Shown: one piece after another, positions 1,462 through 64,000 of the stretch
Position numbering within the stretch: the first letter of the stretch is position 1
How the letters are laid out: every line of letters begins with the position of its first letter
Assembly: GCA_022414725.1 (NCBI GenBank)
Contig: CM039462.1
Location: forward strand, 4,049,936-4,113,935
DNA from: Microglena sp. YARC
Taxonomy: Eukaryota > Chlorophyta > Chlorophyceae > Chlamydomonadales > Chlamydomonadaceae
Length of the DNA stretch: 64,000 nucleotides
Direction: 5' to 3'
Position numbers and translations under genes: made by a program
The notes under the pieces: generated by a model
The model's input: only the letters and a program-made list of their open reading frames with translations
What the model was told of the DNA's origin: nothing
Databases searched by the model: none

Positions 1462-4400
1462 ATGACATTCCCTCGCGCGCTCCTTCAGGTTTCCAACCAA
1501 ACAGATTCCAACCAAACAGATGATGATCCATCGATATGGGCCTTGGAGACATGTTGCTCGGGGACCCAGATCGCATTCATCTGCTTCTTCGGAGGGTAAG
1601 CATTCCCTTTTCCAAACTTTCGAACTCGATGGGCCAATTTTCACACATGCCATGCACTTGGATCGGAAATCCTTATCGTTCTCCGACTCCGTTCTCAAAA
1701 TTCGTTACGGGAACAACATGGTGCTTCATTCATGCTTTTGCTGGAGTCCTGAAAACATGTTCAAGCAACTCTTGCTGATGCTGATGCTGATGCTGATGCT
1801 GATGCTGATGCTGATGCTGATGCTGCGTGCACAAGGGTGGCAGCTTCGGGGAGTAGCTGTCTCCCCAATAAGACAGATGGATTTTGAAAGAGAATTCATA
1901 CAGTACAATCCATGCCAGTTTCTTCCTATGCTTAACCCCAATGCAACCCAAACATGCATGCATCCTGATGGCTGGAACGATGGTATTGTGGTGAAAAATA
2001 AGCAGGGATCAGACAGCATTCTCATTTTTGTATTGTACCGCAAAATATGCACTCCCTTAATGTATCCCTCACCAGGTTTCTGGTGATAGATATTCCCTTT
2101 GTATATGCTCCCTCATTGTATCCCTCCCTTATTTGTATATGCTCCCTTATTGCATCCCTCCCCAGGTTTCTGGTGTTAGATCTTATCCTGTGGCCCTTCT
2201 GGGTGTCTAAGCCGACCAAGATGTTGGCGGTGTTTGTGCATGAAATGTCTCATGCTACAGCAACTTGGATGACCTGTGGAAAGGTAAGTGTTCAACCTCG
2301 TTGTCAACTAAATCAATAGCTACGTCCTCTGCGAGTCTCTGGTCATAGCTTTTCTGTTCAGCTACCAGCAGCAGCTTCTAAGCAGCTCCCCTTGCTTGCT
2401 ACCTAGCCAAACCTATAGAAATGTAGTGCAGCTGGAAGCTGACAGAATTGTCTTTCCAGCACTGCTGAAATCTTGGTGCTTAGCCCACTGGCTGGCTCAG
2501 GGAGCTGCAGTCAAGTCGTCGCATTGTGTCAGTTTTATTTGAGGGCTTGTGGGTAGAGGGGAAGGAGGGGGGGGGGGGGGGGGGGGGTAGGTGCTGCAGA
2601 AAATTATGGCTCTAGGATTTCAGCTGTGGGTAGAGGGGTGGAGTGTGTGGGGGGGGGGGGGCTGCAGAAAATTAGGGCTCTGGGATTTCAGCTGTGGGTA
2701 TAGGGGTGGAGTGGGGGGGGGGGCTGCAGAAAATTAGGGCACTAGGATTTCAGCTGTGGGTACAGGGGGTGGAGTGGGGGGGGACTGCAGAAAATTAGGG
2801 CTCTGGTAGTTGAGTTGTGGGTAGAGGGGTGGAGTGGGGGGGAGCTGCAGAAAATGAGGGCTCTGGGATTTGAGTCTGCTCAATAAAATAAAATAAATAG
2901 TAAGCCTTATAACGAGGCGTGAGGTTGAGGGGGGGCAGCCAGTTTGCTTGCACTGGGGCCAGCCACCGTCTGCTTAATACTTAATTGACATTTGGGTTTT
3001 GTAAGCATGCTGGGTGTGCAGGGATGGTCTTCTTCCACCCTACTTTTTGGATTCTATGTGTTTAGTGGAACTTGTCTTGGCAGTGATGAACACTTTAGTC
3101 GTTATATCTCGATCCAGCCTTGTCATTGCCATCATAATTATAGCCATTTAGCGGATGATTTGGATTTGGACTTTCGGAACTCTTAGTTGTTCGTACCTCG
3201 AACTTGAGAATTTGGCCCGAGAATTCTGACATTTTGGACTGAGAATCAAGAATTCTGAGAATTCTCGGAAATATTGCCTGAAAACGAACTACGAACTACG
3301 AGACCCAAATCCAAATCACAGGCTGAGAGGCTATAATCAACAATCCTTGATACTTGTGTAATCCAGCCTCGTTTCCCCCCAACCTTTGCTTGATATTGCT
3401 GTAATCGAAGTAAAGTATCAGCAGCAAAACGTCAGCACTACTGTGTTATAACTGCCTGAATTGCCTTTTTCTTCTTCTGAGGATTTGTTGGAAGACCCCT
3501 CCTTGATGTTGTGGGGCAGGCTTGTCTTGGGCCAACAATGGCTTGTCGATGATAGTGTAATGTTGTGTAATGTAATGTGACAGGTGACACATGTCGGCAC
3601 TATTATGTTGTACAAATGCCTGTATTGTCGTAACTGCCTGTATTGCGCACACAGGTGACCAAACTGGAGGTGCATACCAACGAGGGGGGAGTCTGCAACT
3701 ACAGGGTGCGGATTTGAATTTGAATTTGATTTGTTACATGGTTATTCAGCCAACTCTGGGCTGCACACCATCTGCCAATTTCGAGCCCCCCCGTGCGATT
3801 CCCACGGAAAGCAGGGAGCACACTTAGCGGATTATATGGTTTAAAGACTTGTCCAAGTACAGGTTCTGAATTTTCCTTTTTTTGAATAAGGTGTCTTGCC
3901 TCAAAGGGTGGGTCTCGGTGCGATATCCCTAAGCACAAGGATTATATGTGATTGGCAGAGTCACTCTTACATCACGGGGGAGGAGGTACCCAAGGCATGA
4001 AGCTCACTTTGGTTTTGTGGTTGGTAGTGTTTAGGGTTGGCTGTGCTTGGGATTGGGGCTTGGTGTTGGTGGGTGTTGGTTTGCGTTGGTTGATTGTTTG
4101 GTGTTGGTGGGTGCCGGTTTGGGTTGGTTGTTTTTGGTGGATGTTGGTTTGGGTTGGTTGGTTGGTTGGAGTTTTTGGATGTTGGTTTGGGTTTGTTGGT
4201 GGGTGTTGGTTGTTTGGTATCGGTGGGTGTTAATTTGGCTTGTTTGGTGTTTTGTGGGTGTTTGGTTTGGGGTGAGTGGGTTATTTCGTGTTGGTGGGTG
4301 TTGGTTTGGTTGGTCTTATTGGGTGTTGTTTTGGGTTGCTTGGTTGGTGTTGGTGGGTGTTGGATTGGGTTGGTTGGTTGGTGTTGGTGGGTGGTGTTGT

Positions 4401-5853
4401 TTCGGGTTTGTTGTTTAGTGTTGGTGGGTGTTGGTTTGTTGTTTGGTGTTGGTGGGTGTTGGTTTGGGTTGGTTGCTTGGTGTTGGTGGGTGTCGGTTTG
4501 GGTTGTTTGGATTGATTGGTTGACTCATACTGCTTACTTTGTTATGAATTTGCTCCTTTGCGCATGCACGCTTCATATTGTATGTTAAGGGTCCCGGGGC
4601 TGAAGCCCTTGATTCCCCCTGTGTCTATCTCCGCCGCCTGTCCGTCTCTCCATCTATCTATCCATCTATCCGTCTGTCCGACAGATGTCCAGGCGTTTGA
4701 ACGATTCCGACCACCTCCGCACCCACCATTTTTGCTCATAGTTGGAGTACGCATGACTAGAGTTGTCAGCATCGCAGCGGTCAAAATCTTTCGCAAAAGT
4801 TGTTCAATGTTTGTAGCTCTATTCGGCTACGAGTAGTTACTTTCTCCACTACTTCCGAAACTCCCTGCCGGTGACTGCTAAAGCGATTTTCCGTGTTGCT
4901 TGCGACACGCTCTTAGAACTTGTATGTTATGGGTCATGTAAACAAACACATTTTAAGGGGGTGACTGTCTTCCAGCACATTAGGGCACAATCTGAAGTAG
5001 CATTGCAGTGAAATGGCTGAAGAAGGCTCATTGTGTATGTTGTCACAGTCCAGGGGTAGGCCAAATCGGCTAGAGGGACTTGCTGACCGTGACACGAGGA
5101 TCTTAAAATGAAAAAGAACTGAAGAACTGAACCCCAAACAATCGCATTACCTATGGGCTATGGGGGCCCTGAGTTCGTGCTACCGTGAACATTTAATTGT
5201 ACAATTACAACCCTTGATCAGCCACGTTCGCTTTCTTGGGAGTGGTTTTTTTAAATTTAATTTTTCCTTCAGATATCTGATCCTACACCCTTTGTGTCAT
5301 TTGCTGACCTGTCCCATTTTGTGAGGTGGGATTCATATGTCTCTGAGCTTGTGTCCTGATCATGCTCATGCTCTTCTTCAGGGTGGCTGGCAACCATTGA
5401 TTATACCAGCAGGATATCTGGGAGGAGCGTTTTGGGGATCAGCTTGCATTGTGGCCACATCAAACACGTACGAACAACTGTTTTGTCATGATTAAGTTAC
5501 AGTGGATCGGGCTAACCTTTTGAGGCAAAAAATACATGTTGTAAAAATAATAACTGCATGTAAAAACAATAACAACAAGTGGCCCCTTTGCAGCACTGAT
5601 CCACAAAAATAAATTGGTACTGTTTTATTTCAGCTTTCTGTAGGTCCAGTTGTGTAGCAAACGTTGTGACGCAAGCTTGGTTTTGGGCTTGTGGCTAGCA
5701 CGGTATAAGGCGGAGCGCTAAATACGGGTTCGGGTTGCGGTGGGGTCGCACTGGGGTCGCATCGAGTCGCTAAAATTGTGCTAACATTTAAGTAAAATAT
5801 TTTGCAACGCGTCGCATAGAACAAAACAGTGGCAAACAAGCGATGCTTGGTGG

Positions 5854-5921
<68 letters not shown>

Positions 5922-6756
5922 CTCTCTCTTGCAAACAGTGTTATAGCTGCACAGTAAACACAAGCACCATTTATCGCCACTAGGAATCTGTCATATGGTC
6001 AACCCTATGATAGAGAAAGTACATCTGGCCATCTAACTGAAGATCTGAGTGGGAAGTCCTTCCAAAATCAAAATACAAATTGAAAATCCACTTAAAAAGA
6101 AAAGGAAGAGAGCAGTCAAGGCCCAGAAGTAATGCTTAATTTGATGGGCGTGGACCTTCTTCCATTGATTTGGGCCTGCCCAACAGCAACACCATCTCTC
6201 ATCAGCCATAGCTTTTCTTTTCTGCTACCAGCAGCAGCCTCTCGGCAGCTCCCCTGGCTTGCTGTACAGGAAAACTTATAGCAGCGTAGTGTATCTTGAA
6301 GCTGGCAGAATCATATTTCTATTAATATTGAAATCTTGGGGCTTGGCCCAGTAGTTAGCTCAGGGAGCTGCCTAGAAGCTGCTGCTCGTAGCTGCTGCTC
6401 ATACCTGAAAATAAAAGCTATGACGCCTGCGCAAGCTTTATATCCAAGTTCCCACATTGCTGTAGGTCCGCCTAGGTAGCAAGCCAGGGGAGTTGCCTAG
6501 AAGCTGCTGACGGTAGCTGAAAATATGCCCCCCCCCCCACCCACCACCACCACCACACACACACACACACACACCATAAACACACACTCACACTCAAAAC
6601 TCAAATATACACATACATATGCACACACACATGCACTCACACATACACACATACTCCCGCGCAAGCATTGAATCCAAGTTTTCTCATTCCCTGGACTGCT
6701 CCTATTGTTTGCAGAGCCCCCCCTTCTGAGGGTCCAGAGCCCCCTGAGTCACACGG

Positions 6757-6806
<50 letters not shown>

Positions 6807-8225
6807 GGTTAATGGTGTTACACAATTTAATTGCGGTCCAGCCACACAGTAATCAAAAAGACCAAAAATATCATTAGAAATAAGTCATCTAGCCAACCCT
6901 ATTATTGAGAAAGTACAGTAAGCCAACTAACTAAGGGGGGGGGGGGCTCCCTCTGTAACACAAAAACTCATTCCATCTCAAAAGATTGAAACAAATTCCA
7001 AAGGCACAGTTCTGGCCCAGAAAATAATATATATTTAAGCATACAAAAACCAATCTAGGCAAATTAAGCCAGAAGGTGCTAGTTTCTATAATTGTCATTC
7101 TATGTGTCTTTGTCTAAGGCGTCTTTGATGTCCGCCCTCCAGCTTGCTCTGTCTTGGGCCAGTAGGTACCAATTTGGAGACATGCTGGTGGCTTGGAGAT
7201 CATCCCTAAGGGTGTGAATGATGGTCTGTCCTCCTTGCCTCGGTTGACCCTCAGCAAGGGGTGTGTGCGTGGGGAAGAGCATTTGCTTCATGATGCGCGA
7301 GTCAGGTCGCCTGGCTATGTGTCCTAGGAACCTCAGTCTATTTTCTCTAATGATGCTGGGAATATCCCTGTGGTTGCATCTTTGTCTAATGTCCTCATTC
7401 CTAAGTCTGTCTGCTCTGCTAATGTTCAACGACATGCGTAGACACTCATGGAGTACTACGTCGAGTCGTTGAATCAGGGGTTCTGAGAGAGCCCATATCT
7501 CGCTCCCGTACTGGAGGGTGGATGGTATGATAGCTTTGAACACCAGATTCTTGATTTTCCTGGTTATGCAGTGGTTTTTCCATAGCCTCACCAGAGAAGA
7601 GCAAGCCTCCCTTGTCCTAGCGATCCTGCGTTTGACTTCCTCTTGTAGGTCCCCATCTGGTGTGAACAGATTACCTAGGTACATGAATGAGGCAACCAAA
7701 TCAATGCTGCCCCCATTCAGTGCTATGGGAGTGGGAGTGGGGTGAGGGAGGGAGCTAGACAGAGGGTGGAAGTGCATAGCCTTTGTCTTCTTGTAGTTGA
7801 TGGACATACCCCAAGTTCCTGAGGTGGTCTCAAGACTCTTTAAGAGGGAGGTGAGGCCATCTTTGGAGTAGGACAAGAGAACTAGGTCATCAGCATACAG
7901 GAGGAAGGTGATGCAATGGGTCGTAGCTTGGGGGTGGGATCTAGGGTTGGCTGAAGTGTTGAGCAGTCCATTCATGTCTGAGGCTATTGGGAATCCAAGC
8001 TGGACATCCTCTAGGGAGAAACAACTTCTAACCAGGTGATCCATGAACAGGTTGAAGAGGAGGGGGGAGAGGGCGCATCCTTGCCTCACTCCTGCTTTCA
8101 TCTCAAACTTTCTGGATCTGTAACCCTGGACAAGGACCTCTCCTGAGCATCCTCTGTACATCTCTTTAACTAAGCTAACTAGGTGGGGATCTACCCCTCT
8201 GGCAGCCATCAGCGTCCACATTGCC

Positions 8226-8258
<33 letters not shown>

Positions 8259-11200
8259 GCATGTCTATATGTCTGCATGTCTGTCTGTCTGTCTGTAGTG
8301 TTGTGGGCACATAACCCTGGCCTTTGCTGGCCCCTTGCCCTGTCGTAAACTCTGGCTTCAATCCTCTGCACTCGATTCCAACCCGATCTACCGATTCCAT
8401 CTCGATCTACTCGATTCCATCTCGATCTACCCCTCTGGCTGCCATCAGCGTCCGCATTGCCTCTCTGTCTGTCTGTCTATATGTCTGTCTGTCTGTCTGC
8501 AGTTTTGTTGGCACATAACCCTGGCCCTTGCTGGCCCCTTGCCCTGTCGTAAATTCTGGCTTCAACCCTCTGCACTCGATTCCAGTGCCACCTGTCGCTC
8601 TGAAAGCCAACACTCTCTACCAATTTTGTCCGTTTCGCTTGTGACGCGCGTAGGACTAGTTTATAAGGAAATGAAGCAGTGTCCTTATGAAGCACAATAG
8701 TGCTCCTAGTAGCCTTTGGGTAGCTACTCGCAGCTCCTTTGCCCCCCCGCCCAAAGTGACCCCACAAGGCTCTAACGTAGCACCCTCAAAACACCAAGTT
8801 TTTATTTGTTAACAGGTCATGCTACGGGGACTTCCTGGTCCATGTGACCCATGACACTGTTTTCCGTTTCAGCTTCCTCACCCGCTTCTATGCAGCTCCC
8901 CTGGCTTGCTTGTTCTTGCTTAGTTCCACCTATTGTAGCATTTATTCTGATATGCTCTGGTAAACGGTGTAACGCAATGTGTGTGCGGCTAGGCCGCACA
9001 GTAAACAATAGCACCAAAGTCAAATGAAGGAATAGGTCATCTAGTCAACCCTATGATGGAGAAAATACAGGACTTGTCTCTACATGCGCCTACCTCTAAA
9101 TTCTGTGGCACTCTTTGCAGGATCTCTTGCTATGTGCTCACCGGTGTTATCTTGGCAGCTCTGCTTGTTGCACTCTACTACAGCGGGAACTGGTCAGTAA
9201 AAATGCCTGGATTTTTATTGTTCATTTCAATCAAACTCGAAAATGTTGTTTTGTTGAAACAAATTGTTGTTTTGTTAAAAAACAAAGGATGGTATTGCAC
9301 CTTGTATCCCCCCCCCCCCCCCTGCACCACCCCCACCCCCAAGCACACTAGGACACACACTACACAGCACACACACACACACACCACACACACACCACAT
9401 ATACACAGCACACAAGTGCACGCACACACACATTACACGCACACTACACACAAACCACACACAGCACAAGCACGCACGCACTCACAGCACACACAGCACA
9501 CGCACACCACACATACCACACACACCACACACCACAAGCGCGCACACACACCACACACACATCATAGCATACACATCACAAGCACACACAGCAGAAGCAC
9601 AAGCACATACACAGCACACAGCATACAGCACACACACCACAAGCACACACACACACACACAGACATCACACACACACACACATCACACACACGCGCACGC
9701 ACACACACACCACGCACACACACACCACGCACACACCACAAGCACACACACAGCTCACACACCAAGAGCCATGTGTGCAGCACCAGATTGTGGCATCCTG
9801 ACCCATGTACCTTGGGACGTGTTTCATTTCACTATTTCCATTGTAGTTAAGTTATACGGGCATACCACGCAGCTGCACTATTTTATGTACTATATTTCAT
9901 GAGATATGTGAATACATGTGATGATAATCGTAATGTGATATTACTCCGCTCTGTGTTTCTTGGCATGCCAGAGTTTTTTTCTTTCCGAAAGGGGTTCTTC
10001 TGGTAGACTTCAGGGATTTGGTGTGTTTCAAGGTTGGGCGCCTGGTAGCAATTTGGGTAGGCGGCCCCAATGGCCGGCCCGAGATTTGAGTCTCATGGTA
10101 GCGGAAGGTTTGGCCAAAACAGGGTCCCAGGTAGCGATCGCTTCTGGTAGCAGAAAAAAGAGCTCTGTGGCATGCCTAGATGACTTCACAAACATAGCAT
10201 TTCTTTTCGGCTACAAGCAACAGCTTCTAGGCAGCTCCCCTGACTGGCTATTCAGCCAAGCCCAATGCAAGCTAGTGCACCTTGACGCTGGCACAATCAG
10301 CTGTCAAAAACTGCTGAAATATTGGGGCTTGTACCAGCGGCTAGCTCAGGGAGCTGCCTAGAGGCTGCTGCTCGTAGCTGAAAAGAAGAGCTGTGGTAAA
10401 TGTGGGGAATGGGATGATTCTGATAGTGACGTGATGTGTGCCATGATGGTGTAGGGACACATGATTGGGACACATGATTGCGCTGGTGAGATAACCAGGC
10501 CACCAAACCACAACCATGCCCGATCCACCATACTCCCTCACCCACAACCCCTCACCCACCCACCCACATTCGCACACACACCTTGTAGCCAATCATAAAA
10601 GCTATGGTGAAAGCTGTGGGGAATGGGATGCTGATAGTGGTGTGATGTGTTTATGCACAGATGATTGCGCTGGTGCGATAACCAGACCACCAAACCACAA
10701 CCATGCCCAACCCACCATACCGCCCCCCCCCCCCCACCCCCACCCCCCACACACACAAACACATTCACTCACTCGCACACACATTCACACACACACCTCG
10801 TTGCTGAAAAGAAAAGCTATGCTCACACGTGTCACCACAACTTGTGAAATTCGTTTCTTCTTTTCTCAGAGAGCTACCTAGAAGCTGCTGCCCGTAGCTG
10901 AAATGAAAAGCTGTGCCAGCAAGTATCACCACATCATGTGAAATTAGTTTCTGTGAATTCCCTGGCAGACGTTGTTCTCTTTGTTTTCAATTGCTGTTTG
11001 TTTAGTGCAGACCCCACTTAAGATCATGCCTCCAATATCCATTCTCTATTCTGTATTCTGTATACTATATTTTGTATACTATATTCTATATACTATATTC
11101 TGCATTCTATATTCTGCATTCTATGTTCTGCATTCTATATTCTGCATCCTATATTCTGCATTTTATACTCTGCATTCTAAATTCATTTTTCATTCCAATC

Positions 11201-12101
11201 ATTGTAAGCATGTGCTAAGGTTGACAAGATTCCGATTCCTCTGGCTCATGTGTAGGGAACAGCAATACAATATCATACGATGCCAGCCGACAGACTAGGT
11301 TGCCATTAATCTACAATATTGACTGACTAATTTACATTTATGTACAATATCAACTGACCAAATGTATATACAATATCGACTGACTAAGTTACCATTAATG
11401 TACAATATCATATGATGCAATTTGTATAATACCATACTCGCCTTTGGTCAGCATCATATGAAATACTCACTAAGGTCCTTGCTCATGTGTCTTCCCTGAT
11501 TTTCACAGCTCCTACGTCGTTTTTGTTACTGCGTTGCAGAGCTGCCCATTTCTTGGTGGTTGCATTTTTAATTTGAATTGTTACACGGTTCTTCTAATTC
11601 TGGGCTGCTCACTGTCTGCCAATTCCAAATCACCCTGTGCGATACCCACAGAAACCAGCAAGCACACAGATTATACCGTTTAAAGACTTTGGTGGGTTGA
11701 TAATGAGTGGGTGGTGGGTGGTTGGTGGTGGGTTTGCTGCACCACCACCACACAAACACACCATCCAAAACACCGCACACACGCACACTTACAAACCACC
11801 ACACACATACACACACCACCACCTCTCCCCCCAGTCAAGATCTGTATTGGTGATTGATTGACTGCCTGTTCACCGATGTAGGGCCCTGCGATGGATGTGC
11901 TTGGGATTTATTGGGATCATTCTCATCTTCCTGCTCGTCAACATTTTCACCGTTTTCAAGGCCCTCAAATACGTCATCCTCTATTTTGGAGTCTACATCG
12001 CGGTATGAGGTTTGAGCTTTGACAAGTGTATCCTTCACCTCAGAGAGAGAGAGAGAGAGTCGGAGAGGGGGAGAGGGGGGAGAGAGAGAAAAAGAGAGAG
12101 T

Positions 12102-12155
<54 letters not shown>

Positions 12156-15100
12156 GTAAATCTGCCTGATCTGTACTCATGGTTGCAAGTGTATATCTCG
12201 TCCCAACACTTTTGTCAATTGAAACCCAAAGCTGTTAGCTGCATTGGAATGCCCATCATGTCAGCTTTAAGACACTCTAGCTAGCTTCAGTGTTGGCCCA
12301 AGGGTTGGGGAAAGGATCTGCCTAGAAGCTGCTACACGTAGCAAAACAATGAAACAGTGCCACCTATGTCTGTCAATGTCCACTCATACTTAAATGCGAT
12401 GGCTACGCAACAATCCTGAAATCAGGCTTGAGTAGCCCAAGTAGCTACTCAACCTGGCTTACAGAAATCTGAAATAATAATCACTGGAGACCACCTATGT
12501 CCTGCCACTGTCCACGCATACTTAGCAACCTGTTTTCACCAACAAAATAAATAAATAAATTGTATGTCTTATTACGAGGCGTGAGGTTGAGGAGCTCACC
12601 CCGTTTGCTTTTGCTGGGGCCTGTTCACACCAATCTTTATCTATCCCCAATTTTCAATTGTGTCTTAACCAGCTCTCAAACAATTCTCAATTGTGTGTTG
12701 ACCTGCTCTCAAACAAATTCAATTGTGTTGTAACCTTCTCTCAAACAATGGCTGCAGGCATTCTCAATTTATGACATTTGGGACGATACCATCTCGCGAG
12801 TTGTGGATGAGAAAGATGTCAAGTCAGATGCTGTCGCTTGCTCTGATGTAAGTGACGTTTGGGAACCAATGTCCAATTTGTTTTTCTATGATATTTAAAT
12901 CAAACTATTAAAAATGTTTTTTTGTAGAAACAAAGAGGATGCTGTTGCTTGCGCTGATGTGAGAGACATTTGGGAACCAATGGACATTTTTATAACATTG
13001 AAGTCAAACTCTAAAAATGTTTTGTTTAAAATAAATTAGATACTGTTGCTTGCGCTGGTGTAAGTGATGTTAGGGAACCAATGGCCACTTTGTTTTTAAA
13101 TTATATATAAATCAAACTTGGAATTTTTGTTGTTGTTTAGTCGGATGCTGTTGCTTGCGCTTATGTGAGTGGCGTTGGGGAACCAATGGCCATTTCTATA
13201 TTTAAATCACACTCTAAAACTGTGTGTGTAATAAGTCGGATGCTGCTGCTTGCACTGATGCAAGTGATGCTCGGGAGCCAATTGCCATTTGCTTGCTATC
13301 ATACTTATCGACTTCATGCTTAGAGTAGGAGCTTCTCCAAGCACTGCCAAAAGCAGTATATGAACCCAGAAAAGTCACCTCATCACCCGTATGACCCACT
13401 CCAAGCATTGCTCATAGCAGGATATTTTGCCTAGATTGATTGCCTTGAACTCTTCTATCATCCTGCAGCAACAGTTTGTCCAAATTCAAATTTTTTAATA
13501 TGAGTAGGGAAACTGTAAAGACTAATTTCAACATGATCAGCCAAGTTCATGGTCAGGAAATGTGATCCCTGTTTCATCGCTTTCCTTTTCGGCTACATGC
13601 ATTAGTTATTGGCAGCTCCTTAAGCTAGCCACTGAGCTACACCCAAATATTTCAGGGATTCTGGACAGCAGATTGTGACAGCTTCAAAGTGCACTGTGTT
13701 GTGTTAGGCTTTGCTGAACTAGTCCTATGCAGCGTTTCAAGCGATGCGGAAAATTGGCGGGGTGTGTTGGAAACGGAAAGAAAGGTGGCGAAGGTGGAGC
13801 TGACCGAAGCTAGTTAGTTATTAGACAGTTGGCTGACGTGTCGGGCTTCAATTTTTCGGTCGCACTTTTGTACAACGGGGTAACACTGGAGGCTCCCGCT
13901 CCCCAGAAGGGAGGGTTCCACCAAAAACCAGTCAGGGGAGCTGCCTATAAGCTGCTGTTGGAAGGTGAAAAGAAATGTCATTTCTGTTTTGTTGTCATTT
14001 ACCTGGATTGTGTCCTGTGGTTTCACATAGGAACCTGGTGTTGGCATAATGGCATGTGAACTAGTGAAGCGTCACCATACAGAACCAATTCAGATGACTT
14101 GACTCAGATACCTTACATGCCGCTTCACATTTTCCTTAATACATATTTAAATTTGGGCAAGCCCAATAGCCCCAAGGGACTTAGGAAAATCAGCGTTAGC
14201 AGGCTTCATCATTGTCATACTTGAGTTTGCACAAGTTAAGGGGCCTGCTTGCTGGGCATAACGACACTGCAATAGAGGCCCAGCGCATCTTCAAATGGGG
14301 CCCCTTTCGGTTGGTGTGCAGTAACTATTTTAGGGTCTGAGCTTTCCCTAAGTGCTTGTTCTTTGGAGGTGTTCCTTGTTCCCAAGTAGGGAGCTGGATC
14401 CTTCCTCAGACTGCACTTGTACTTGCTGCAGTACCTTACAATAAGTATACTGCACCGTCTACTTAGCTTGTATGTCCAGACCTGACAGGTCTGTCTTTGG
14501 GCTACTACCATGTGCAAGAGTCACTGTAGGTCACACACACACGGCCACTCTTTACGGCCTCCAGGCCTTCAAGAGTATAAAAGACCGGGGAAAGGTGTAG
14601 GAGGAGAAGGACCATGTACAAGGCAGCAGGCTGTGCTAAAGGGGGAGAGGTACACAAAGGCTATCAAAGGCTAGAGGAAAAGTTCAGCTTAACTGTCAAG
14701 TCTGGAACTAAATAAGCTTTGATGGCGTCTGACTTCCAACGTCCCTGGGTCCTGATGGTCTCTAGATCAGCCCCGTTAGCCCAGGCTGCTACTACACCTC
14801 CACGTCTGAGGCTGTGCATGGCAAACCTAGCAGGATCTAGATCTAGCTTGGGGTGTGAGCGTGCAACTAGAGTGAGGTAAGATTTAAGTCTATAGGACAA
14901 AGCCTGACCTGTAAGGAGCGGGGAGTGAGACAGGCTAAGTGTGTCTAGGTTCCAGGCTGTAAGGAGTGGGTCCTCTGGTGAGGCTCCCTGTTGGGACCTC
15001 AGCCTGACGAGGGCCTCTATGATTCTTCTGACATGTAAAGAGTCTCTACAGACTGCTGGAAGGACTACTGTGGCCCCCTTCTCTTCCTGATCGGTCTTAG

Positions 15101-42641: not shown

Positions 42642-42673
<32 letters not shown>

Positions 42674-45600: not shown

Positions 45601-46702
45601 GAACACGAAGCTGCTAACCAATCCAGGCGCGAAGACTATGCTGCCCAGCCTGAGGAGATATAGCAGGATCATAATCAAGCCAGACCTTCAGATCGTGATG
45701 CTTTTTTCCTCCGTCTGCGAGCGTTGCCACCATTCATCTCACGCATGCGCAATTTTGCCATGCCATCGCATCACATTCGTAGTGATTGGCATCCAGTTGC
45801 GATTAATTACCTCTGTTCAGATCGCCATGGCCATTCCGTCCCCCTGTACACTCTCGCGCTTGCCACGCTCATCCCATCTTTGCAAGCACTTTTCGTTCTA
45901 TAGAATATGAAGTACGTTGCTGCGATTTTTGCTATTCTGAGTTGACCGAGTATTGACTGGGGCACTGTACGAGAAGACGAAGCTGCAGGTTTGTAGCCAT
46001 GCAACTGCACTGGTCCGGTGTGCTGGGGGCGATCGGATTCTGAGCGTTCGCAATGTTGGTAGGTTCGAAGCACAGCGTCCCTCTTTCTGCACGATTGAAT
46101 CCCACAGGGTGAAGTGAAGGGTACGAGGTAGGGAGAAGAAGATTGTGTGCGCGTGTTGGTGGTTGGGGGAAGGGAGGGTGGTGGGGGTTAAGGTGAGAGA
46201 AAGAGAGTGCGTGTGGATGGGGTGGGGTGAGGGGTAGGGAGAGGTCAGGATGGGGGGGATGGGGGGATGGTATGTGTGTATGAGGGTGGGAGGCCACACC
46301 TGAAGCAGAAGGGGAATAGGTAGGGAGAAGAGGTGTGTGCGGGTTTGGGGGAAGAGGCAGGGGAGCGTCGAGCAAGGGCTGAGATGGTTGATTTCTTGAC
46401 TGTGTGTAAGAGAGAGAGAGGGGGGGGGGGGGGGGGGGGGACATGTAAGGGTGTTACCCGTTATGTAACCCAGACCAGACTAGGACCCATGGCCTGGGTG
46501 GGGGGTGGCCACCGGCCACACGGGCTACAGTACTAGTATATATATATATATACTAGTACTGTAGCCCGTGTGGCCGGTGGCCACACCAACACCCCCTCTC
46601 CCCCCCACACTCAGACGCACACCTCTTCTCTCTACCTTTTCCCCTTCTGCTTCAGATGTGGCCTCCCCCCCTGTCATACACGTATTCCATCCCCCCCCCC
46701 CC

Positions 46703-46735
<33 letters not shown>

Positions 46736-48833: not shown

Positions 48834-48889
<56 letters not shown>

Positions 48890-50494: not shown

Positions 50495-50525
<31 letters not shown>

Positions 50526-50659
50526 ACACCGCGCGGCCCCCAAACTTTGGAGGTCCAGCACTTGTTTTCTACTGGGCAAAATTAAGAGATAGAACCGGAT
50601 TCTTCATCCACTTAATGATATATAAAAAGTTGGGAGATGGTGTCATTTTGGTTAAAAGT

Positions 50660-50690
<31 letters not shown>

Positions 50691-52313
50691 GGCTTGTCAT
50701 ATCAAAATTTCATACACATCAGCTAGCGTCAGTTTTCGCACACGGGTGGGTGAAAGGAGCTGCCTAGAAGCTGCTATGCGTAATCAAACAAATTAACAGT
50801 GGTCATTGGGTTATGTTATTGTGTTGTGTTGTGTTATTTGGTTATCTTATTGGGTTATGTTATTGCGACGCAAGCCTGATTTCAGGATTGTGGACTAGCA
50901 CAGTATAGGGCGGAGTGAGGAGTTCAGGGGGCAGCGTGTCACACTGGTCGCACCAAGTCGCTAAATTTGAGACGCGTCCGACAAAGACAAACAGTGCCTA
51001 TCATCCATTATCCAGGTATCATACATGATTTCAAAACGCTATTTCCCCATATACCAGTCAGTAAGGAAGAGGCCAACAATTACATCACACTGCCATCGAC
51101 AAGCAATTATTGACCCAAGACAAGCCCGCTCCACAATATCTAGGAGGGGTCTTCCAACTAATTCTCAAAATAAGATAGGAAATATTGCAAGCAAGCAACC
51201 AAGATTGCAGCTAGAAAGCAATATTGCTTGTACTAATGAAGATATCAATTGTTGCAAGGCAGGCTCCATTCAACAACCAACAACCAAGATAAAAACTAGG
51301 GTAGGGCCGACGTATGAAGGTATACTCATAAATTTATAAGCTCATACGTATATATACGCCGCATATTTTTTCTTGAAACGTATGAGTATAGACGTATACA
51401 TACGTATGAGTTCTACTTCGAAAAGTTCTCGGCACTTAACTTTCTTGGTTTTCATTCATTTTATCATTTAGATAGCTCATTGGAAAGCTGTTGACCTCCT
51501 CTGTCACAATCTGCAATGACATTAATCTTTCACACATACCATTTTGTTTAAATGTGGCCTACAGTTTGATTTAGATAGCCAGGATGGCACACATATCAGA
51601 GCGCCACCTAGCCTTCCATTCCACAAGCTGTGTTCCTACGTGGGGTTGAAGGATTGATAATGCAAGCCTAGTGCAATGTGAAGATGGACAATATTGCAAT
51701 ACAGTTATATATTTACATTATTATAACCTGTAGCCGACTCACAGAGCTGCCTAGAAGCTGCTGCACACATGGTCTGAAACCTGTAGCTGACTCACAGAGC
51801 TGCCTAGAAGGTGCTGCACACTTGGTCTGATACCTGTAGCTGACTCATAGAGCTGCCTAGAAGCTGCAGCATACTTTGTCTGAAACCAGTAGCTGACTTA
51901 GAGAGCTGAGTATAAATAATGATGTGGACATGGACAATATTAATATATTATTGGCATTGAATGGATCCCTTAGATCGGCACCGCGCTTCTTGGTCGACGC
52001 GCTTTCTGGCCGTGATTTCTTTTCTAGATTTTGACAACCTAAAATTGCCAGAATATATTTTTAAGAGTTGACATATGAAACCAATGAAATTAGCAACGCT
52101 GCAATATCTTAAAACCCATGAAAAAGTATTGTCCCAAGAAGTGCAATAATTACTCATACGTTTTTATACGTTTATATGCATACGTTTATACGTTCATACA
52201 GCATATAAAAATGGAAATATACGTTTGCTTCCCAACCCTAATAAAACACAAATCACAATACAGCACTGTCTACGTAGAGTCTTCTTCACATCCCATACCA
52301 CCTCAAGTGCCCC

Positions 52314-52346
<33 letters not shown>

Positions 52347-53119: not shown

Positions 53120-53181
<62 letters not shown>

Positions 53182-55997: not shown

Positions 55998-56085
55998 CCT
56001 TAGCCTTAGCTTAGCTTAGCTTAGCTTAGCTTAGCCTTACATTACCCTAGCTTAACTTACCTTAGCCTTACCTTACCTTAGCTGG
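55998..56085. repeat. Degenerate CTTAG pentamer array
   Basis: TTAGCTTAGCTTAGCTTAGC with CCTTAC and CCTTAG variants; about 17 units. Confidence 0.9.
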
Positions 56086-56106
56086 GGAGTGTACATCAGG
56101 GTAGTG

Positions 56107-56850: not shown

Positions 56851-59800
56851 ATGCGCAGCATGAGATCCCCCGAGCCTCTTCTTGCTTGCACGTCCATTCA
56901 ATTGTTCGTCGCGCTTCTGCTGAGCGTCGGGTCTGTCGCTCACTGTAGGGAGCTGAAGCAGGAATTCGACCTGAATGCGAGAATTGCAGATGTGACGCAA
57001 AGGAGCTCTTGGAACCATAATGTGAGGATGCTACTGCTTTGATGGACATATTACAGTCTGGTCTGGTCCCCCCCCCCCCCCCCCCCCCCCACCCTCACCC
57101 CCACTACAGCCACCCCACCCACATATCCCTCCTTCCCACCGTGGGTGTGTAGGTTGGTTGGCTTGATCAAATGGTCCATCAGCCTTCAGGCTGCTCACCC
57201 TCTGTGAGCAGCATAAACAAAAGGCTACTATCCCACACTTCTGACAACAGAACATAACCACATGGGCGTATACTGTTAGGATGTAACTTGCTCATGCTTA
57301 CAGGCACACCCCACACATGTCATTGCTTTTTGGCGGAGCCCCCCTTCTGTGGGGTGGGAGCCCCTAGAGTCACCCCGTAGTTCACATGTTGTTTGTTTGT
57401 TTGTCAGCATGTAACCCTGGCCCCAACTGCCCCCTGGCCCTTTTGTAAACCCTGGCTTCTGTCCACTGCACTTGATTCCGGTGCCACCTGTCGCCCTGAT
57501 TGCCAACAATCGGCCAATTGTCTGTAACGATTGCGACGTGCCTAATATTTGTTTGTTTTAGTCCCTCCTGTGATGTTTGGGCAAGAACCTCAACCATTTT
57601 TCGTCTACCGCTGGACTGTAACAACATACCGCCTGTCATTTTAATCCTGCAATCCCTCGCATACTTCAGTAATCATGCATTCGGTCCATTTGATTTCACA
57701 TCACATCATTTTGCATTGTCACAGACTGGCCATAGTTGACCAAAGTCAAGCCCACTCCACAACATCCAAAGGGTCTTGCAACCATCCTCCACTCAATTTC
57801 GTCAAGCTGTGGGCACATGCAAAGTCCAGTTGGGCACCAGGATCATGTTACCCATCCTTGAAACGTCCCCATACACCCTAGATCAGTAGGTGTAACATAG
57901 CCAATCACAAGCTTACGCACCCTTTATAGCAATTCATCAGATGATTTGGAATTCGATTTCTTAAAAAAGGTTGAAGGTCATACTTCCTACCTCCAATTTT
58001 GTCTGGAATTCTGAGAATTTTGAGAAGTCTGGGAAATCTGTTGTAAATTGGCCTGAAAAAGAGGTATGAAGTTTCACCTAAGAATGTCCATTCCAAATCA
58101 TGCGCTGAATTTCCATAAAGCGCTCTTGTACGCCATTCACAGCCTGGTACAACCTTTCAAACTTCCCACCAACCAAAGCCCACAGCCCACAGTTGTGTCG
58201 CTCTCTAGACTAGTCTTTCTTTCATCTCGATATCAATCCTTTCAATAGCAATCCTTTCTCTGCACCTCTGCTCTCATTAGATTTGTCTGTTGAGAGTATG
58301 TAGTATGTACAAGGAGGGCTGAATATCCTGTGGGCTTAACACTTGGTGTTCTATGATCCGTTGTGAGTCCATCCCCCACATTCCTTTTGGGAATTCTGAT
58401 TTACCTGCTGTACCCTCTCTCTTGTGCTCAATATGAACTGCCCCCAGGATCCCCCTCAATCTAACTCACGCTTGTGCCCTCTCTCTTGTGCTCAGTATGT
58501 ACTGCCCCAAAGGGCTCTAGCTAAAGGGATGACTGTTGTGGGAGACAACAGCCGAACAAAGAACTTCATGAGGAAAATGATCGAGGGTAAGGTGGTGGAT
58601 TGGGATGGGGTGCGGCAAGGTGGGGTGTTGTAAGATGGGGCGATGTTGGGCGGTTGTGTGAGTGGGTGGTAGTGCTGGGTGTGGGTGTGTGTGTGTGTGG
58701 TGTGGTGGAGTGTGTTTGTGGGGTGGAATGGGACGGCGTGTGTGTGTGTGTGTGTGTGTGTGGGCGGGGGGGGAGGGGGGGCGTGTGTGTGTGTGTCGGG
58801 GGTGGGTGAATGGCGTACAGTAGGGTGGGAGAGGTTGCGATGGCGTAGAACGTGGGGAGCCAGTTTGTGTGTGTGGGGGGGGACAGGGACGGCATGGGGT
58901 GGGGGGTGGGGGTGGGGGGGGGATGGCGTGTATGTGGGGTGGGGTTGGGGGTTGGGGTGTGTGGAGGTGTGTGGGGGGCTGCGTGGTGTGGTGCCCATCC
59001 TTCATGTCTCATGATCCCTTACATAATCTACCTTCTGTGCATTGCTGGCAGGCAAGCCTGTGAAGTATGCCCTGCTGGGTGGCAGCATCAGCACCCAAAG
59101 GGGAGCTCCCCACGGGGACATGCAGTGGCATGGTGTGATGCAGAAGTGGTTTGAGCTAACATTCACAGAGTGTGGACACAAGTGAGTGTGGACAGTGGAG
59201 GAGTATTGAAGTACTGGCATGGTGTGATGCATTCTCACAGATAGTGGGAAAAGGTAGGGGCTGGCAATGGAGAAGGGTTGAAGTACTGACATGGTGCAAT
59301 GCAGAAGTGGTCTGATCTCACACACACCGGTAGTGGGAAAAGGTAGGGGTTGAGAAGGGGGAAGTGCTGTAGTGTTGTCAACATGTCATCTGAGTCAGCA
59401 TCAGCACCCATAGGGGGGCACCACATATGGACATGCACTGGGATGGGTTGATGCAGAAGTGGCCTGAGCTCACATTCACGGAGCGTGGAAAAAGTGAGGT
59501 TTGAGAATGGGGAGGCAGTACAGTTTGTTTTTGGCTGTGCGTTGCAGCTTATATGCTGCTCCTTTACCCCACCCTTGGGCCAAACCTAAAGCTAGCTAGT
59601 GTGCCTCAAAGCTGACAGGACAGGCATTCCTAAGCAGCTGAGAGCTTTGGGCTTGACATAGGGACTGGCTAATAGAGCTGAATGGAAGCTGCCACTTGTA
59701 GCCCCATAAATGAAAAGTGATGAGCTCTACAGTACACATTATAAGTATGACCATATATTTTATTTTCGTCCACAACCAGCAGCTTCTAGGCAGCCCCCCT

Positions 59801-62800
59801 AGCTTGCTACCCAGCCAAACCAAACACAGTCTAATCCACCTGGTTGCTGCTGTTATCACTTTCCTACACTTGCTGAAATCTTGGCGCATAGCCGGATAAT
59901 AATTCAGGAGTGCCTAGAAGCTGCTGCTCGTAGCCGGAAAGAAAAACACTGCGCATGATAGACGCTGATACCACTGACATGAATGGTTGTCATACAAAAT
60001 GCAACAAAAACGGAGAGGACAGAGAGACATAAAAAACAATTTAACACCTGAAAAGGTATAATGGCAACAAATAATGAATCAAGTTAAAAAGCCAAGCCCC
60101 CCCCAGCCCTATCTCCCCTCACTCCCCTCCTCCCTGTCTGAAAGCTTCTTTCAGATTCCCAGATTTCAGCATAAGATTACATTCGCAAGAATGGACACCA
60201 GAAATGAACCCCAACCAGTTCGTTACTGTTTCTCACTCCCCCCTCCCCCCCTCCCTGTCTGTGAACTTCTTTCAGATTCCCAGATCTCAGCGTAAGATTA
60301 CATTCGCCAGAATGGACAAATGAACTTCACACATGCAATGACAACCAGTTTGTCACAGCCTGCAACATGGCTATTGGATCCTCCGGCGCCATCTTTGCAG
60401 AGAAGTGTCTTGCTCAGAAGGTATGCACACCTTTTCTCTTTTGGGCTATTTATTTTGGGGTTGTGCACACTATTGATGGTACACACACTTTGTTTTGTCT
60501 TCACAGTCTACACCATGTTCATTGCCTCCTCTGGCGCCATCTCTGCTGATAAGTGTATTGCTCAGATGGTACACATATCTATCGTTGTGTTTATGCATTC
60601 AAATTTTTGCTGGAAAGGTTATTGCTCAAAAAGTATGAACTCCTGTTCTCTTTTGTGCTATTTATTTATCTATTTATTTGTTAGGGTTATGCACACCATA
60701 TCTTTCTTTGTCACGGTCTACAACATGGCCATTGGCAGCTATCTTTGCTAATAAGTGTATTGCTCATTAGGTATGCACACCTTATATTTTGGGGGCAGTT
60801 CTTTTGGGGGTTATGTACACTATTAATGCTAGGCACACTGTTTTTTTCTGGGGTTAATACGTATGTTAACGTGCATATTTTCTTCTGATGAAAGGTAATG
60901 AAAACTTCGTGGGGCAGGACTGGGGCATTGCTTTCCTTTTCAGCTACAACAGTAGCTTCTAGGCAGCTCCTCTGACAGGCTCCTCTGCCAAACATAATGC
61001 AATTCAGTGCATCTTGAAGCTGACAACATCAGCTGTCCATAACTGCTGCGTTGTTTTGGTGTAGCTCAGTGGCTGGCTCATAGAGCTGCCTAGAAGCTGC
61101 TGATACAAGTTTAAACAAAAAAACCTGGATGGAGGGCATGATCTTATTGTCGTAGTGCAACAAAGACTGTGGAGCAGGCTGGTTCAAGGGTACTTCAGAA
61201 TCTACGTTTCATGTCCCCAATCTACGTTTCATGAGCCAAGATCTACATATCAAACAGAACAACCCCTCCACAGTATGCATTTTGAAATTGAAAACCTAAC
61301 GTTTTGAAAAATCCTTGTGTGATGATGATAATGGTGATGGTTACGTTCTCTTCGTGCCCTGTTGGACTCCAAATGTGTAGACTCAAGTTGCGTTCAGTTC
61401 ATCAATCGTTTTTATTTTTAGCCCTTTTTGTCACGGTTAGGCAAGTCCCTTCGACCTATTTGACCTACCCCTGGGCTATAACATACATACACACAGACAG
61501 ACTAACTCCAAATGTGAAGAGACCGCACATGTGTTCAGACCAGATTACCGCCCTCAATGAAGCAGACAAATTGGGCCTTATTTGCAGTGATTTTTTTAAG
61601 GATTTGATCACTAACTCAAATAATCGTGCTGCACGATTCCCAGGTCTGGAGTTTGAGGAGATGGAAACATTAATAATCGCTCAGCGCGATTTTGCTTACA
61701 TTCTGGGCCGAGGAATAAACAAAATAATCGTGCACACTTATAAACAAGGTTTGAGCCACTCATTCAGCGTTTGTCGATACCTCGTGGCTCAACCCGTCGC
61801 CCAAAATCTACGTACCCAGAGTTTCAGTTGCAGATGTCAAATCGATAACAGCTTCTGGCGGGGGCGGGGGAAGAGAGCACCGCTCTACTGGGCGACCTAG
61901 GCGAGTGGGCTCCACAACCATGACGGAGCCTGTGATGGTCTTCCATCTCCCGGGAGGAGGCTTGTTCGTTAGAGCAGTAGGCTTGCGGCCTACCTTGCCC
62001 TTGGCTTTGTCCTTATTCGGGACCATTCAGCTTGCTCCATCGATCGGGTCAAAGCGTTTGAAGCTCGAAACAATAACCGCAGCAGTTCTTCGACGCATAA
62101 CAGACCTGAAACCACAGGCCGTTACTTTCGTTTGAACGGTGAGTGGCGTGTGGAGTCCACAGTTGCTGTGGAGCCGTGTGGACCTAACTAACCTGACGTG
62201 TCAGGGACTGTCAGCCTGTGCCAAGGCCAACCAATTCCAAAACGATGCCAACAAAGTAGCTGCACGTTGCCCGAGCCAACCGTCTGCGACGTCTGAAACA
62301 TTAAAAAGCGTGCGGCGCGATGCCTCACCCAAGCCATCGGTCGGTCGGAAACATTAAGTATCGTGCATGCACGATGCTTCACCCAACGTTTCAGAATTCG
62401 AAAACATTAACCAGACCTGAGAAAACGATGGACCGATTCTCAAATAACATTAAAATCGTGCAAAAAACGATTAATCGTGCCTAAAAAAAATCACTGCTTA
62501 TTTGGCTTTGTGTAAGGCCCCCTTGTAAAGGCTGCTTTCGTGGTCCAGCCCCACTGTTTAATTATAGACGCTTCAACCCACGGTTACACCGGTCGCACCA
62601 GGAGGTGCCGATTATACCTAAGGATTCGGCGTCGACCTAGGCCTCTGGCCCACGCCAATCAACTGAGGCCTTCATCCCACCTCACCTGCGCTTAAACTTG
62701 TCACATGGGCCGGTCAACTCAGGTTGATAAGAGCAGCCAGGTTTATTTCTACTCAAGCACAGGAAGCATAGTGCTTGGAATTTCAGATGCGCTGAATCCT

Positions 62801-64000
62801 CCTTGGTTACACATTGTTTTCTTCATACCGGTATAACTTGTTAATATTTTTCTTTCACTGCCGAGGGTGGCAAGCAAGTTGAAGTTCACAATGAGTTTCA
62901 CTCCCCCCCTCACTTTGTAATTCAGATCCCCAAGGACGTGGACTTAGTCATACTGGAGTACACCATGAACAGCCTGGATCCAGCTTCCCAGGTAAGTGGG
63001 TTTGCTAATTTAAAAACAAAACTGGCCTACAGATATATGAAGAAAAAGACTGCGAGCACCACTCTCAAGAATTGGAAGACTTTAGCAGGGCTAGAAAGCT
63101 GATTACTATACTTAATTTTGCTCCATTGTTTCCCCCCTTGCTTGCTTTGGGTTGTGTGCTCACTTCTGTGTTGTTTCCCACTTTGTGTAGGTCCCAAACA
63201 TCGGCAGGCTTACCACACTCCTGCCCAACCTTATATTGGGCTTGGTGCTGTGTGGCTCCCCCCTTTGTGGCTTCCCTCCCCTCCCCTTCTGCCCCCCCCC
63301 CCCCCCCCCCCCCTTCGTAGTGCAGATCACTGACTTGTACGACCCACGCACTTAGGGTTGCTTTTCCCCTTGCACATGCCATTATTAACATCGGCAGGCT
63401 TACCACCCTCCCGCACAACCACTCCATCCAATATTGTTGTGATCAGTGCTTTGCTGCTTCCCCCTGGCATAGTTCATTATTAACACAGAGAGGCTTACCC
63501 CCTTCCCACTCATCCACCATTACTCCAACCAATCGTGTTATGTGTTCAGTGCTGTGTTGCTTCCCCTTTCTTGTTTCCCCCTTGATTGCTTTGCTCTGTA
63601 GTTTCCTCCTTGTAGTGTGCTCAATGATGTGTTGCTTCCCCACCTGCATAGGCCATTATTAGCAATGGTAGGTTTACTACCCGCCCACTCATCCACCACT
63701 AGTCTAACCAAACTTGTTATGTGCTAAATGCTCTTTTGCTTCCATCTTTGCATAGGCCATTGTAAACATAGAGAGGCGATCACTGGAGCGTCTCATGAGA
63801 AAGGTACGGTGCTGTCGGTTGCTGCGTAGAAGGTAGTTGAGGTGGTTTTGAGGTGGTTGGATGTGGGTTTAGGGTTGATGTTCATGCACACCGTCACTGG
63901 ATGCTGCATATAAGGTAGTTGGGGTGGTTTGATGTGGGTTTAGGGTTGATGCTCATGCACACTGTCACTGGAAAGCCTGCAAAGCCCGCAAAAAACAAAA
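56851..64000 (+). CDS. Secreted SGNH/GDSL-like hydrolase, first six exons; runs off the window
   Basis: Exons 56851-57021, 58496-58586, 59052-59181, 60276-60420, 62926-62991, 63756-63803 join in phase. Residues about 1-32 form a signal peptide (SIQLFVALLLSVGSVAHC). Then YVLPQRALAKGMTVVGDNSR and MRKMIEGKPVKYALLGGSIS, whose GGSIS is the SGNH block I with the nucleophilic Ser; HGVMQKWFELTFTECGHKFP; NMAIGSSGAIFAEKCLAQK (block II Gly); and IPKDVDLVILEYTMNSLD, the block III Asn region. This order matches algal secreted SGNH proteins (VGGSIS...DVDLVIVEY-ND). The Asp usual after Asn is Ser here. The catalytic Asp-His block lies beyond the edge. Substrate unknown; esters of cell-wall or exopolysaccharide are usual for the superfamily. 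Confidence 0.82.
57335..57500. repeat. Diverged copy of the TCTG/ACCCTGGCC dispersed repeat
   Basis: GCGGAGCCCCCCTTCTGTGG, TTTGTTTGTTTGTCAGCATG, TAACCCTGGCCCCAACTGCC, TCTGTCCACTGCACTTGATT; matches 6712-6810 plus 8300-8390. Confidence 0.8.
57700..57790 (-). repeat. Dispersed repeat family D copy (reverse)
   Basis: TTGACCAAAGTCAAGCCCAC, TCCACAACATCCAAAGGGTC, TTGCAACCATCC. Confidence 0.78.
57930..58112. repeat. MITE-like family C copy
   Basis: AGCAATTCATCAGATGATTT at the left, CATTCCAAATCATGCGCTGA at the right, GGAATTCTGAGAATTTTGAG inside. Confidence 0.78.
58402..58441 (+). repeat. Echo of the acceptor and 5' end of exon 58496-58586
   Basis: CCCTCTCTCTTGTGCTCAAT-ATGAACTGCCCCCAGGA copies CCCTCTCTCTTGTGCTCAGT-ATGTACTGCCCCAAAGG at 58476-58512. 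The copy's acceptor AG has become AA, so only the downstream one can splice. Confidence 0.9.
58600..58990 (+). repeat. G/T-rich tract after exon 58496-58586
   Basis: (GT)n and G runs with almost no C; starts ~15 bases after the donor. Complement frames (Pro/His/Thr) are not genes. Confidence 0.9.
59205..59510 (+). repeat. Echoes of the 3' part of exon 59052-59181
   Basis: GCATCAGCACCCATAGGGGG, ATGGACATGCACTGGGATGG, TTGATGCAGAAGTGGCCTGA, GCTCACATTCACGGAGCGTG (59398-59486) mirrors the last ~100 bases of the exon, and AAAGTGAG mirrors the donor. Two shorter copies (GGCATGGTGTGATGC at 59216, GACATGGTGCAATGCAGAAG at 59287) lie between. Confidence 0.9.
59528..59710. repeat. AGC-core element, subfamily A2
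   Basis: GCGTTGCAGCTTATATGCTG-CTCC left, GAATGGAAGCTGCCACTTGT-AGCC right; CAGGCATTCCTAAGCAGCTG inside. Confidence 0.7.
59757..59944. repeat. AGC-core TIR element, complete copy
   Basis: TTTATTTTCGTCCACAACCA, GCAGCTTCTAGGCAGCCCCC; right GTGCCTAGAAGCTGCTGCTC, GTAGCCGGAAAGAAA. Confidence 0.88.
60122..60235 (+). repeat. Echo of the acceptor and 5' half of exon 60276-60420
   Basis: CCCTGTCTGAAAGCTTCTTT-CAGATTCCCAGATTTCAGCA-TAAGATTACATTCGCAAGAA-TGGACA precedes the real CCCTGTCTGTGAACTTCTTT-CAGATTCCCAGATCTCAGCG. The copy has an intact acceptor but frame-breaking changes (CATAAG). Confidence 0.92.
60495..60775 (+). repeat. Two echoes of the 3' half and donor of exon 60276-60420
   Basis: CACAGTCTACACCATGTTCA-TTGCCTCCTCTGGCGCCATC-TCTGCTGATAAGTGTATTGC-TCAGATGGTAC (60503-60572) and GTCTACAACATGGCCATTGG-CAGCTATCTTTGCTAATAAG-TGTATTGCTCATTAGGTATG (60715-60775) follow the real CACAGCCTGCAACATGGCTA. 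The first still reads MFIASSGAISADKCIAQM with a usable donor. Confidence 0.92.
60938..61100. repeat. AGC-core TIR element, complete copy
   Basis: CTTTTCAGCTACAACAGTAG-CTTCTAGGCAGCTCC left; AGAGCTGCCTAGAAGCTGCT right. Confidence 0.85.
61304..61900 (+). other. Unassigned 198-codon ORF in an SGNH-gene intron
   Basis: The middle part (DQITALNEADKLGLICSDFF, GLEFEEMETLIIAQRDFAYI) is protein-like but unrecognised. 61432-61490 of it is a dispersed repeat (ACGGTTAGGCAAGTCCCTTC, TTTGACCTACCCCTGGGCTA) also found at 43010-43053 and, reversed, near 5045-5095. It may be a decayed transposon fragment. Confidence 0.3.
61618..62485. repeat. Scattered ATCGTGC/GCACGAT palindromes next to CATTAA
   Basis: AATAATCGTGCTGCACGATT (61619), CATTAATAATCGCTCAGCGC (61671), AATAATCGTGCACAC (61719), CATTAAAAAGCGTGCGGCGC (62299), CATTAAGTATCGTGCATGCA-CGATGC (62352), CATTAAAATCGTGCAAAAAA-CGATTAATCGTGCC (62450). 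At least six sites share CATTAA-n-ATCGTGC with its complement after it. Confidence 0.75.
63183..63755 (+). repeat. Four echoes of the acceptor and 5' end of exon 63756-63803
   Basis: The real CATAGGCCATTGTAAACATA-GAGAGGCGATCACT is preceded by CATAGGCCATTATTAGCAAT-GGTAGGTTTACTAC (63651), CATAGTTCATTATTAACACA-GAGAGGCTTACCCC (63469), ACATGCCATTATTAACATCG-GCAGGCTTACCACC (63375) and GTAGGTCCCAAACATCGGCA-GGCTTACCACAC (63187). Unit 90-190 bp with shared intron text CCACTCATCCACCA and GTGTTATGTG-TCAGTGCT. Confidence 0.9.
63804..63985 (+). repeat. About 90-bp tandem duplication after exon 63756-63803
   Basis: GAAGGTAGTTGAGGTGGTTT, GATGTGGGTTTAGGGTTGAT-GTTCATGCACACCGTCACTG is repeated as TAAGGTAGTTGGGGTGGTTT, GATGTGGGTTTAGGGTTGAT-GCTCATGCACACTGTCACTG. 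Confidence 0.92.

Follow-up and report, generated by a model that had tools for sequence, protein, structure and literature searches.

Introns can be gained by tandem genomic duplication, a route with published support (PMC3443670) and described cases in Drosophila (PMC2891723). The introns described here are similar in that local copying within or beside exons doubles the splice-site sequence. They differ in that existing introns appear to be lengthened and the unit spans an existing junction, running on into the intron and not being bounded by duplicated exonic AGGT. Another close system is tandem exon duplication, with its mutually exclusive exons, where exon sequence is likewise copied into the adjacent intron of the same gene; in that study, about 2% of the exonic bases in human, 0.08% in the fly and 0.06% in the worm have copies at an identity of at least 80% (PMC9013439). 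In contrast to those duplicates, most of our copies comprise part of an exon and a single splice site and are arranged in arrays, and 33% of 11,285 exon bases lie in local repeats, a value obtained with a looser cut-off than the 80% identity behind these figures. Introners (PMC9860276) too are repetitive intron sequence but are dispersed elements, while our arrays have few matches elsewhere in the sequence compared. Minisatellites share with these arrays the head-to-tail arrangement of imperfect copies, with units from tens to hundreds of bp in length, but here 28 of the 38 arrays overlap a coding exon's end together with the splice site. Internal gene duplication by intragenic tandem duplications was reportedly studied by Gao and Lynch in 2009, and we know of no junction-anchored array architecture in that work. 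Introns built from such arrays were not described in the titles and abstract openings searched, a set with few subscription journals that provides weak evidence of novelty. Exon-echo introns, as we call introns carrying copies of the ends of their own flanking exons, are a real architecture and a variant of known tandem duplication, not a new kind of system.

Gene models in the window

The window is the whole stretch of 64,000 nucleotides that was analysed (G000:C1:4049936-4113935). It belongs to a genome of 568 Mb in 2390 contigs, is eukaryotic and has GT-AG introns. Scans of the window for tRNAs and Rfam families found none. Two EukProt proteins have matches to its exons, P0002 (M50B-like) and P0058 (SGNH-like). 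Inside the exon limits their pieces agree with the window nearly letter for letter and most tblastn pieces are 94-100% identical; two pieces overrun the exon ends, with identities of 49% and 68%. Judging by their sequences, both are very probably public gene models of the same genome.

The M50B-like gene (1330..12847, + strand) was delimited with the P0002 pieces and Pfam PF13398 and may extend further. It has seven exons in one frame with GT-AG borders (1330-1595, 2166-2283, 3655-3705, 5382-5467, 9121-9192, 11882-12002 and 12758-12847), the last of which is missing from P0002. This protein looks wrong in the region 11882-12847, since it terminates by read-through of the donor at 12003. The rhomboid-like gene (40019..52990, - strand) has a 40% match to P0001 over the whole query and a match to PF01694, and its six exons are in one frame (52880-52990, with an uncertain start, 49115-49254, 43063-43146, 42136-42231, 41207-41400 and 40019-40153). 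The third gene (56860..63803, + strand) is based on the P0058 pieces and probably continues beyond the window; exons 3-6 of its six exons (56860-57021, 58496-58586, 59052-59181, 60276-60420, 62926-62991 and 63756-63803) are in one frame. Its product is presumably SGNH-like; the Pfam search of the protein gave no match. P0058 looks wrong in the region 63650-63826, where it seems to take part of an intronic copy as an exon (AIISNG), and this public model is probably a prediction.

Several other elements were seen in the window. On the - strand, 14664-19889 is what we take to be a DIRS-like retroelement, with tyrosine-recombinase-like, reverse-transcriptase-like and gag-like ORFs, and 7100-8476 (-) is a long ORF with a reverse-transcriptase-like YADD motif, presumably LINE-like. 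An open frame of 871 aa at 27079-29694 (+) is built for the most part from a 63-bp coding repeat (EQLPES-like) present about 30 times. A long rhomboid intron holds an inverted repeat of about 1.4 kb (44966-46337 and 46618-48062, 78% identical) resembling a foldback element.

Exon echoes in the window

Echoes were located by self-comparison of the window, followed by reading of the sequence and of the single-frame gene models. In the M50B-like gene, the acceptor and the first 19 bases of exon 2166-2283 have an upstream copy at 2045..2094 (+; 86% over 50 columns against 2137-2184). An array of about five units of about 105 bp begins inside exon 12758-12847 and extends over 12821..13307 (+), with the echoes downstream at 12938-13307; its units carry the 3' end of the exon, mostly with GT, the final one with GC.

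In the rhomboid-like gene all copies are on the - strand. Downstream of exon 52880-52990 there are two copies of its 3' end with the donor (52706-52775 and 52280-52417) and a third made of exon bases only, without donor (51235-51279), the identities being 91%, 76% and 87%. Exon 43063-43146 is followed downstream by three copies of its 3' end, at 42981-43000 (95% over 20 bases), 42875-42912 (76% over 38) and 42779-42812 (82% over 34). Exon 42136-42231 is flanked on both sides, by three acceptor-side copies upstream (42283..42660; 83-87%, with a period of about 136 bp by TRF) and by two near-whole-exon copies downstream on the donor side (41797..42081; 73-81%, 91 of 96 exon bases aligned). Upstream of exon 41207-41400 there is an acceptor-side copy (41519..41585; 84% over 67 columns).

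In the SGNH-like gene (+ strand), an acceptor-side copy of exon 58496-58586 with 13 exon bases lies at 58409..58444 (92% over 36), and the 3' end and donor of exon 59052-59181 are repeated downstream at 59396..59498 (83% over 104), with related units at 59193-59373. Exon 60276-60420 has its acceptor and 5' end copied upstream (60122..60197; 91% over 76) and its 3' end copied three times downstream (60501..60846; 67-80%). An acceptor-side array of exon 63756-63803 occupies 63357..63743 upstream of it, and it is part of one of these copies that P0058 seems to use as an exon.

A sequence-only reading of the window had named 14 echo places, of which 12 are as described. At 40300 the copy is real (40300..40410, - strand, about 907 bp downstream; 79% over 112 columns) and contains the 3' part of exon 41207-41400 up to the donor, but the donor itself has decayed. 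The other failure is 39790-39982, for which a whole-exon copy of the last rhomboid exon had been claimed. We found none; the stretch holds an internal exon match of 49 bp (39940..39988, - strand, downstream; 84%) and another of 20 bp, with no donor, and the 39841-39942 portion of what was first taken for an echo is a copy of a dispersed repeat family.

Altogether, local direct repeats span 11 of the 35 junctions of the window, all 11 with copies on the predicted side, and account for 21% of the bases in its complete introns. Junction coverage was about twice the deep-intron coverage in the first comparison, made on a window that had been picked for its echoes. Six exon limits were 1-3 bases off in the anchoring analysis of the window, and SGNH exon 1 is one base short in the final limits; neither affects the spanned counts.

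Kinesin and chaperonin genes

Because the window had been chosen for its visible echoes, we tested other genes of the genome. A kinesin profile search gave 128 matches, from which 12 loci were taken with at least three exons, all within about 6.4 kb. This rule was blind to echoes, although some of them were visible in the match table. Two chaperonin (TCP-1) genes, out of five initially chosen, completed a total of 14 loci. Their splice junctions were placed from the position in the profile and the reading frame together with GT-AG, and introns with an unmapped exon inside or exon ends without a convincing site were left out before counting. Local direct repeats were those within 2-2.5 kb, the count of spanned junctions using 2.5 kb. 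One chaperonin locus (L037) has a probable GC-AG intron at oriented position 3987 (GCAAGT donor), supported by the reading frame.

Direct repeats spanned 43 of the 86 junctions, namely 22 acceptors with upstream copies, 20 donors with downstream copies and a single acceptor with a downstream copy, so that 42 of 43 are on the predicted side. The exception is the acceptor at position 1160 of kinesin locus L030, in an exon whose donor is unmapped. These junction-spanning direct repeats support the proposal that the tandem duplications had one of their breakpoints inside the exon and the other inside the intron. A hand count among 219 profile matches (kinesin, chaperonin and myosin), requiring the same strand, a distance within 2.5 kb and an overlap of at least 60% of the shorter match, showed 10 exons with a total of 12 copies nearby; 11 of these copies are on the predicted side and the twelfth (C1:30457694/30457901) is ambiguous. 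The numerical overlap C1:80987214/80988458 was dropped from this tally, its translation being unlike the exon.

That introns consist largely of arrays of such copies is also supported. In the 29 complete introns of the sample, 18,766 of 29,337 bp (64%) lie in local repeats; an alternative array share of 0.74 results when array spans are taken with their gaps and overlaps, compared with 0.64 at the level of bases. These introns contain 38 arrays with a median unit of about 150 bp, 28 of which include a junction, and four introns have no array. The median intron length is 968 bp, and 416 bp after each array has been collapsed to a single unit. Several introns consist of two arrays, one from each exon, with almost no gap between them, as in intron 2 of L026, where the donor array ends at +439 and the acceptor array starts at +441, and intron 3 of L030, where the corresponding positions are +486 and +504. 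The architecture is present in 13 of the 14 loci, kinesin locus L031 having no array. Locus L032 (four junctions, two spanned) is absent from the array and anchoring analysis because it has no complete intron. As a whole, the observation of exon echoes is partly confirmed, with its core confirmed and not confined to the window, and the first interpretation is partly supported.

The side rule and duplication at splice junctions

The positional rule was first presented as a regularity of its own. It holds, but it is no separate discovery, because a tandem duplication that spares the exon must place the copy on that side. If a segment reaching from the exon into the intron were duplicated, the exon body would remain continuous with the first of the two 3'-end copies, and the extra copy would come to lie downstream; acceptors would be the mirror case, with the extra copy upstream. 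As evidence, the rule speaks for tandem duplication rather than for retroposition or dispersed insertion, and shows nothing more.

It had also been suggested that splice junctions are hot spots for duplication, and as stated this is not supported. When founders are placed at random on present-day introns, 10.9 anchored arrays are expected against the 28 of 38 seen (P<0.0001), but the introns appear to have grown by these same arrays. Random founders on collapsed introns give 23.9 (P=0.08), and 25.0 are expected when whole arrays are shuffled within their introns (P=0.12), so that the pooled excess over either expectation is small. The kinesins alone do argue for hot spots, since 21 of their 23 arrays are anchored where 15.8-16.4 would be expected (P=0.005 for collapsed introns and 0.007 for array placement), while the window, with 9 of 20, shows no excess (P=0.25 and 0.29). 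With distance from the junction, the identity of adjacent copies rises in 9 arrays and falls in 9 (window arrays included), an absence of trend which rules out growth solely at the junction and speaks against hot spots in general. So does the ratio of junction to deep-intron coverage, which is about 0.74 in the loci (0.50/0.68) and was 0.63 in a simulation of uniform duplication. It is unlikely, on balance, that tandem duplication has true hot spots at junctions (through co-transcriptional R-loops, G/C-rich tracts next to splice sites or nucleosome-sized slippage), with introns growing from their ends. Junction hot spots are possible but unneeded. We are equally hesitant about the broader idea that junctions are the growth points of introns in this lineage, with duplication starting preferentially across the junction and giving two junction-anchored arrays that meet mid-intron. 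If they were, the spliceosome would have to pick the outermost donor and the innermost acceptor among near-identical sites, a choice that exon definition could make.

Decoy splice sites

At 19 donor and 19 acceptor junctions of the independent genes, echo donors keep the splice dinucleotide at 0.83, against 0.64 for nearby intron dinucleotides, and echo acceptors at 0.92 against 0.68. Neutral decay of the one-sided kind, with only the echo free to change, predicts about 0.80 for donors and 0.82 for acceptors. There is no sign of purging of decoys, because retention is not below this neutral expectation, and selection destroying decoy sites was rejected on these grounds. The loss of decoy splice sites appears to be roughly neutral. 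For acceptors, retention may be a little higher than that (0.92 versus 0.82), so that some of the echoes may be in use.

The overlap with the exon was 17-130 bp at 42 spanned junctions, and at none of the 42 does a copy reach 90% of the exon. Near-whole-exon copies exist outside this count, for rhomboid exon 42136-42231 and for the L030 exon at 1160. Relative to the unit, the overlap is non-uniform (KS P=0.005), which detection limits and exon length account for in part. Under exon definition, a partial exon with a single splice site goes unrecognised. The absence of whole-exon copies from the 42 junctions fits this, and would explain why copies straddling a junction are tolerated, since one intact junction stays and the partial exon is ignored.

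These data also bear on whether the echoes are functional, as alternative or mutually exclusive exons or as decoy sites kept for regulation. The retention of acceptors above the one-sided neutral value would agree with it, and so would the apparent use of an echo as an exon by the public SGNH-like protein, although that model is probably a prediction. Donor retention agrees with neutral decay and no copy at the 42 junctions reaches 90% of its exon, and we consider a function of the echoes very improbable.

Local origin of the copies

Echoes could also be relics of the birth of the introns, by tandem duplication of exonic AGGT segments. Tandem duplication of this kind has support as a way of gaining introns (PMC3443670); that model, as we understand it, predicts a copy of the end of the upstream exon at the 3' end of the intron, whereas the donor-side copies found here come after the donor and include intron sequence. 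We consider such an origin very improbable for these introns.

Chance was ruled out as the source of the echoes by the dinucleotide shuffle (one for each of the 14 independent loci), with zero coverage over 83,153 bp, and by the rarity of inverted local repeats, which make up only 0-5% of the introns in the three window genes. Inverted HSPs were present in one of the 12 kinesin loci (L028, 4 HSPs). Among the 14 loci, the window and a flank of 200 kb, array units are specific to their locus. Over the 270 kb that surround the window, coverage is 29% for local direct repeats and 2.5% for inverted repeats; local tandem duplication is therefore not confined to introns. The flank (C1:4113936-4313935, L004-L023) contains very dense tandem arrays, including a 10-kb block with 95% local direct-repeat coverage.

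Two dispersed families were seen in the window. One, of about 165-200 bp and in both orientations, is possibly a short mobile element (2344-2508, 6206-6394, 10193-10387, 24353-24549, 24620-24799, 38841-39037, 59751-59946 and 60926-61102). The other measures about 130 bp (12222-12349, 39841-39942, 40417-40555, 50708-50801 and 59525-59654). That echoes are dispersed repeats or introner-like elements lying by exons by accident could be proposed from the existence of these families, one of them inside the claimed 39790-39982, but it is largely contradicted and extremely improbable, since junction-spanning copies match their own exon and just 5% of array bases match elsewhere in the 14 loci, the window and the 200-kb flank, where the share is 18% for the remaining bases of introns and flanks.

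Probable intron growth by local tandem duplication

In most of the sampled genes, exon ends and their splice sites form part of tandem arrays, which lie on the side forced by tandem duplication. The likely explanation, in our opinion, is frequent local tandem duplication that lengthens introns, with the copies that straddle junctions being tolerated. Founder segments, for the most part about 80-420 bp long with a median near 150 bp, would duplicate locally and in tandem, and further copying would then build short arrays. Introns were presumably shorter before this growth, and many founder segments would have straddled an exon-intron junction for that reason. A straddling duplication would keep one intact junction, contiguous with the exon body, the other copy becoming an intronic echo. 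Partial-exon copies with a single splice site would be ignored, probably through the pairing of acceptor and donor in exon definition, and duplications that break an exon would be eliminated by purifying selection. Afterwards, the echoes would decay roughly neutrally.

Some observations count against this mechanism. The anchoring in kinesins (21 of 23) is above what its geometry predicts (P=0.005 and 0.007), and the overlap with the exon is non-uniform relative to the unit (KS P=0.005). Coverage is uneven, with 21% in the window introns versus 64% in the sampled ones and L031 without array, and there is one copy on the wrong side, at the L030 acceptor 1160. The retention of echo acceptors (0.92) also exceeds what neutral decay predicts.

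In practical terms, gene prediction and spliced alignment may err in this genome, and both database proteins of the window, P0002 and P0058, look affected. The same introns are a natural experiment on splice-site choice, in which many authentic-looking sites with real exon flanks stand beside the one in use. With half of the 86 tested junctions adjoining tandem copies, they also provide a concrete and countable route for the lengthening of introns without transposons.
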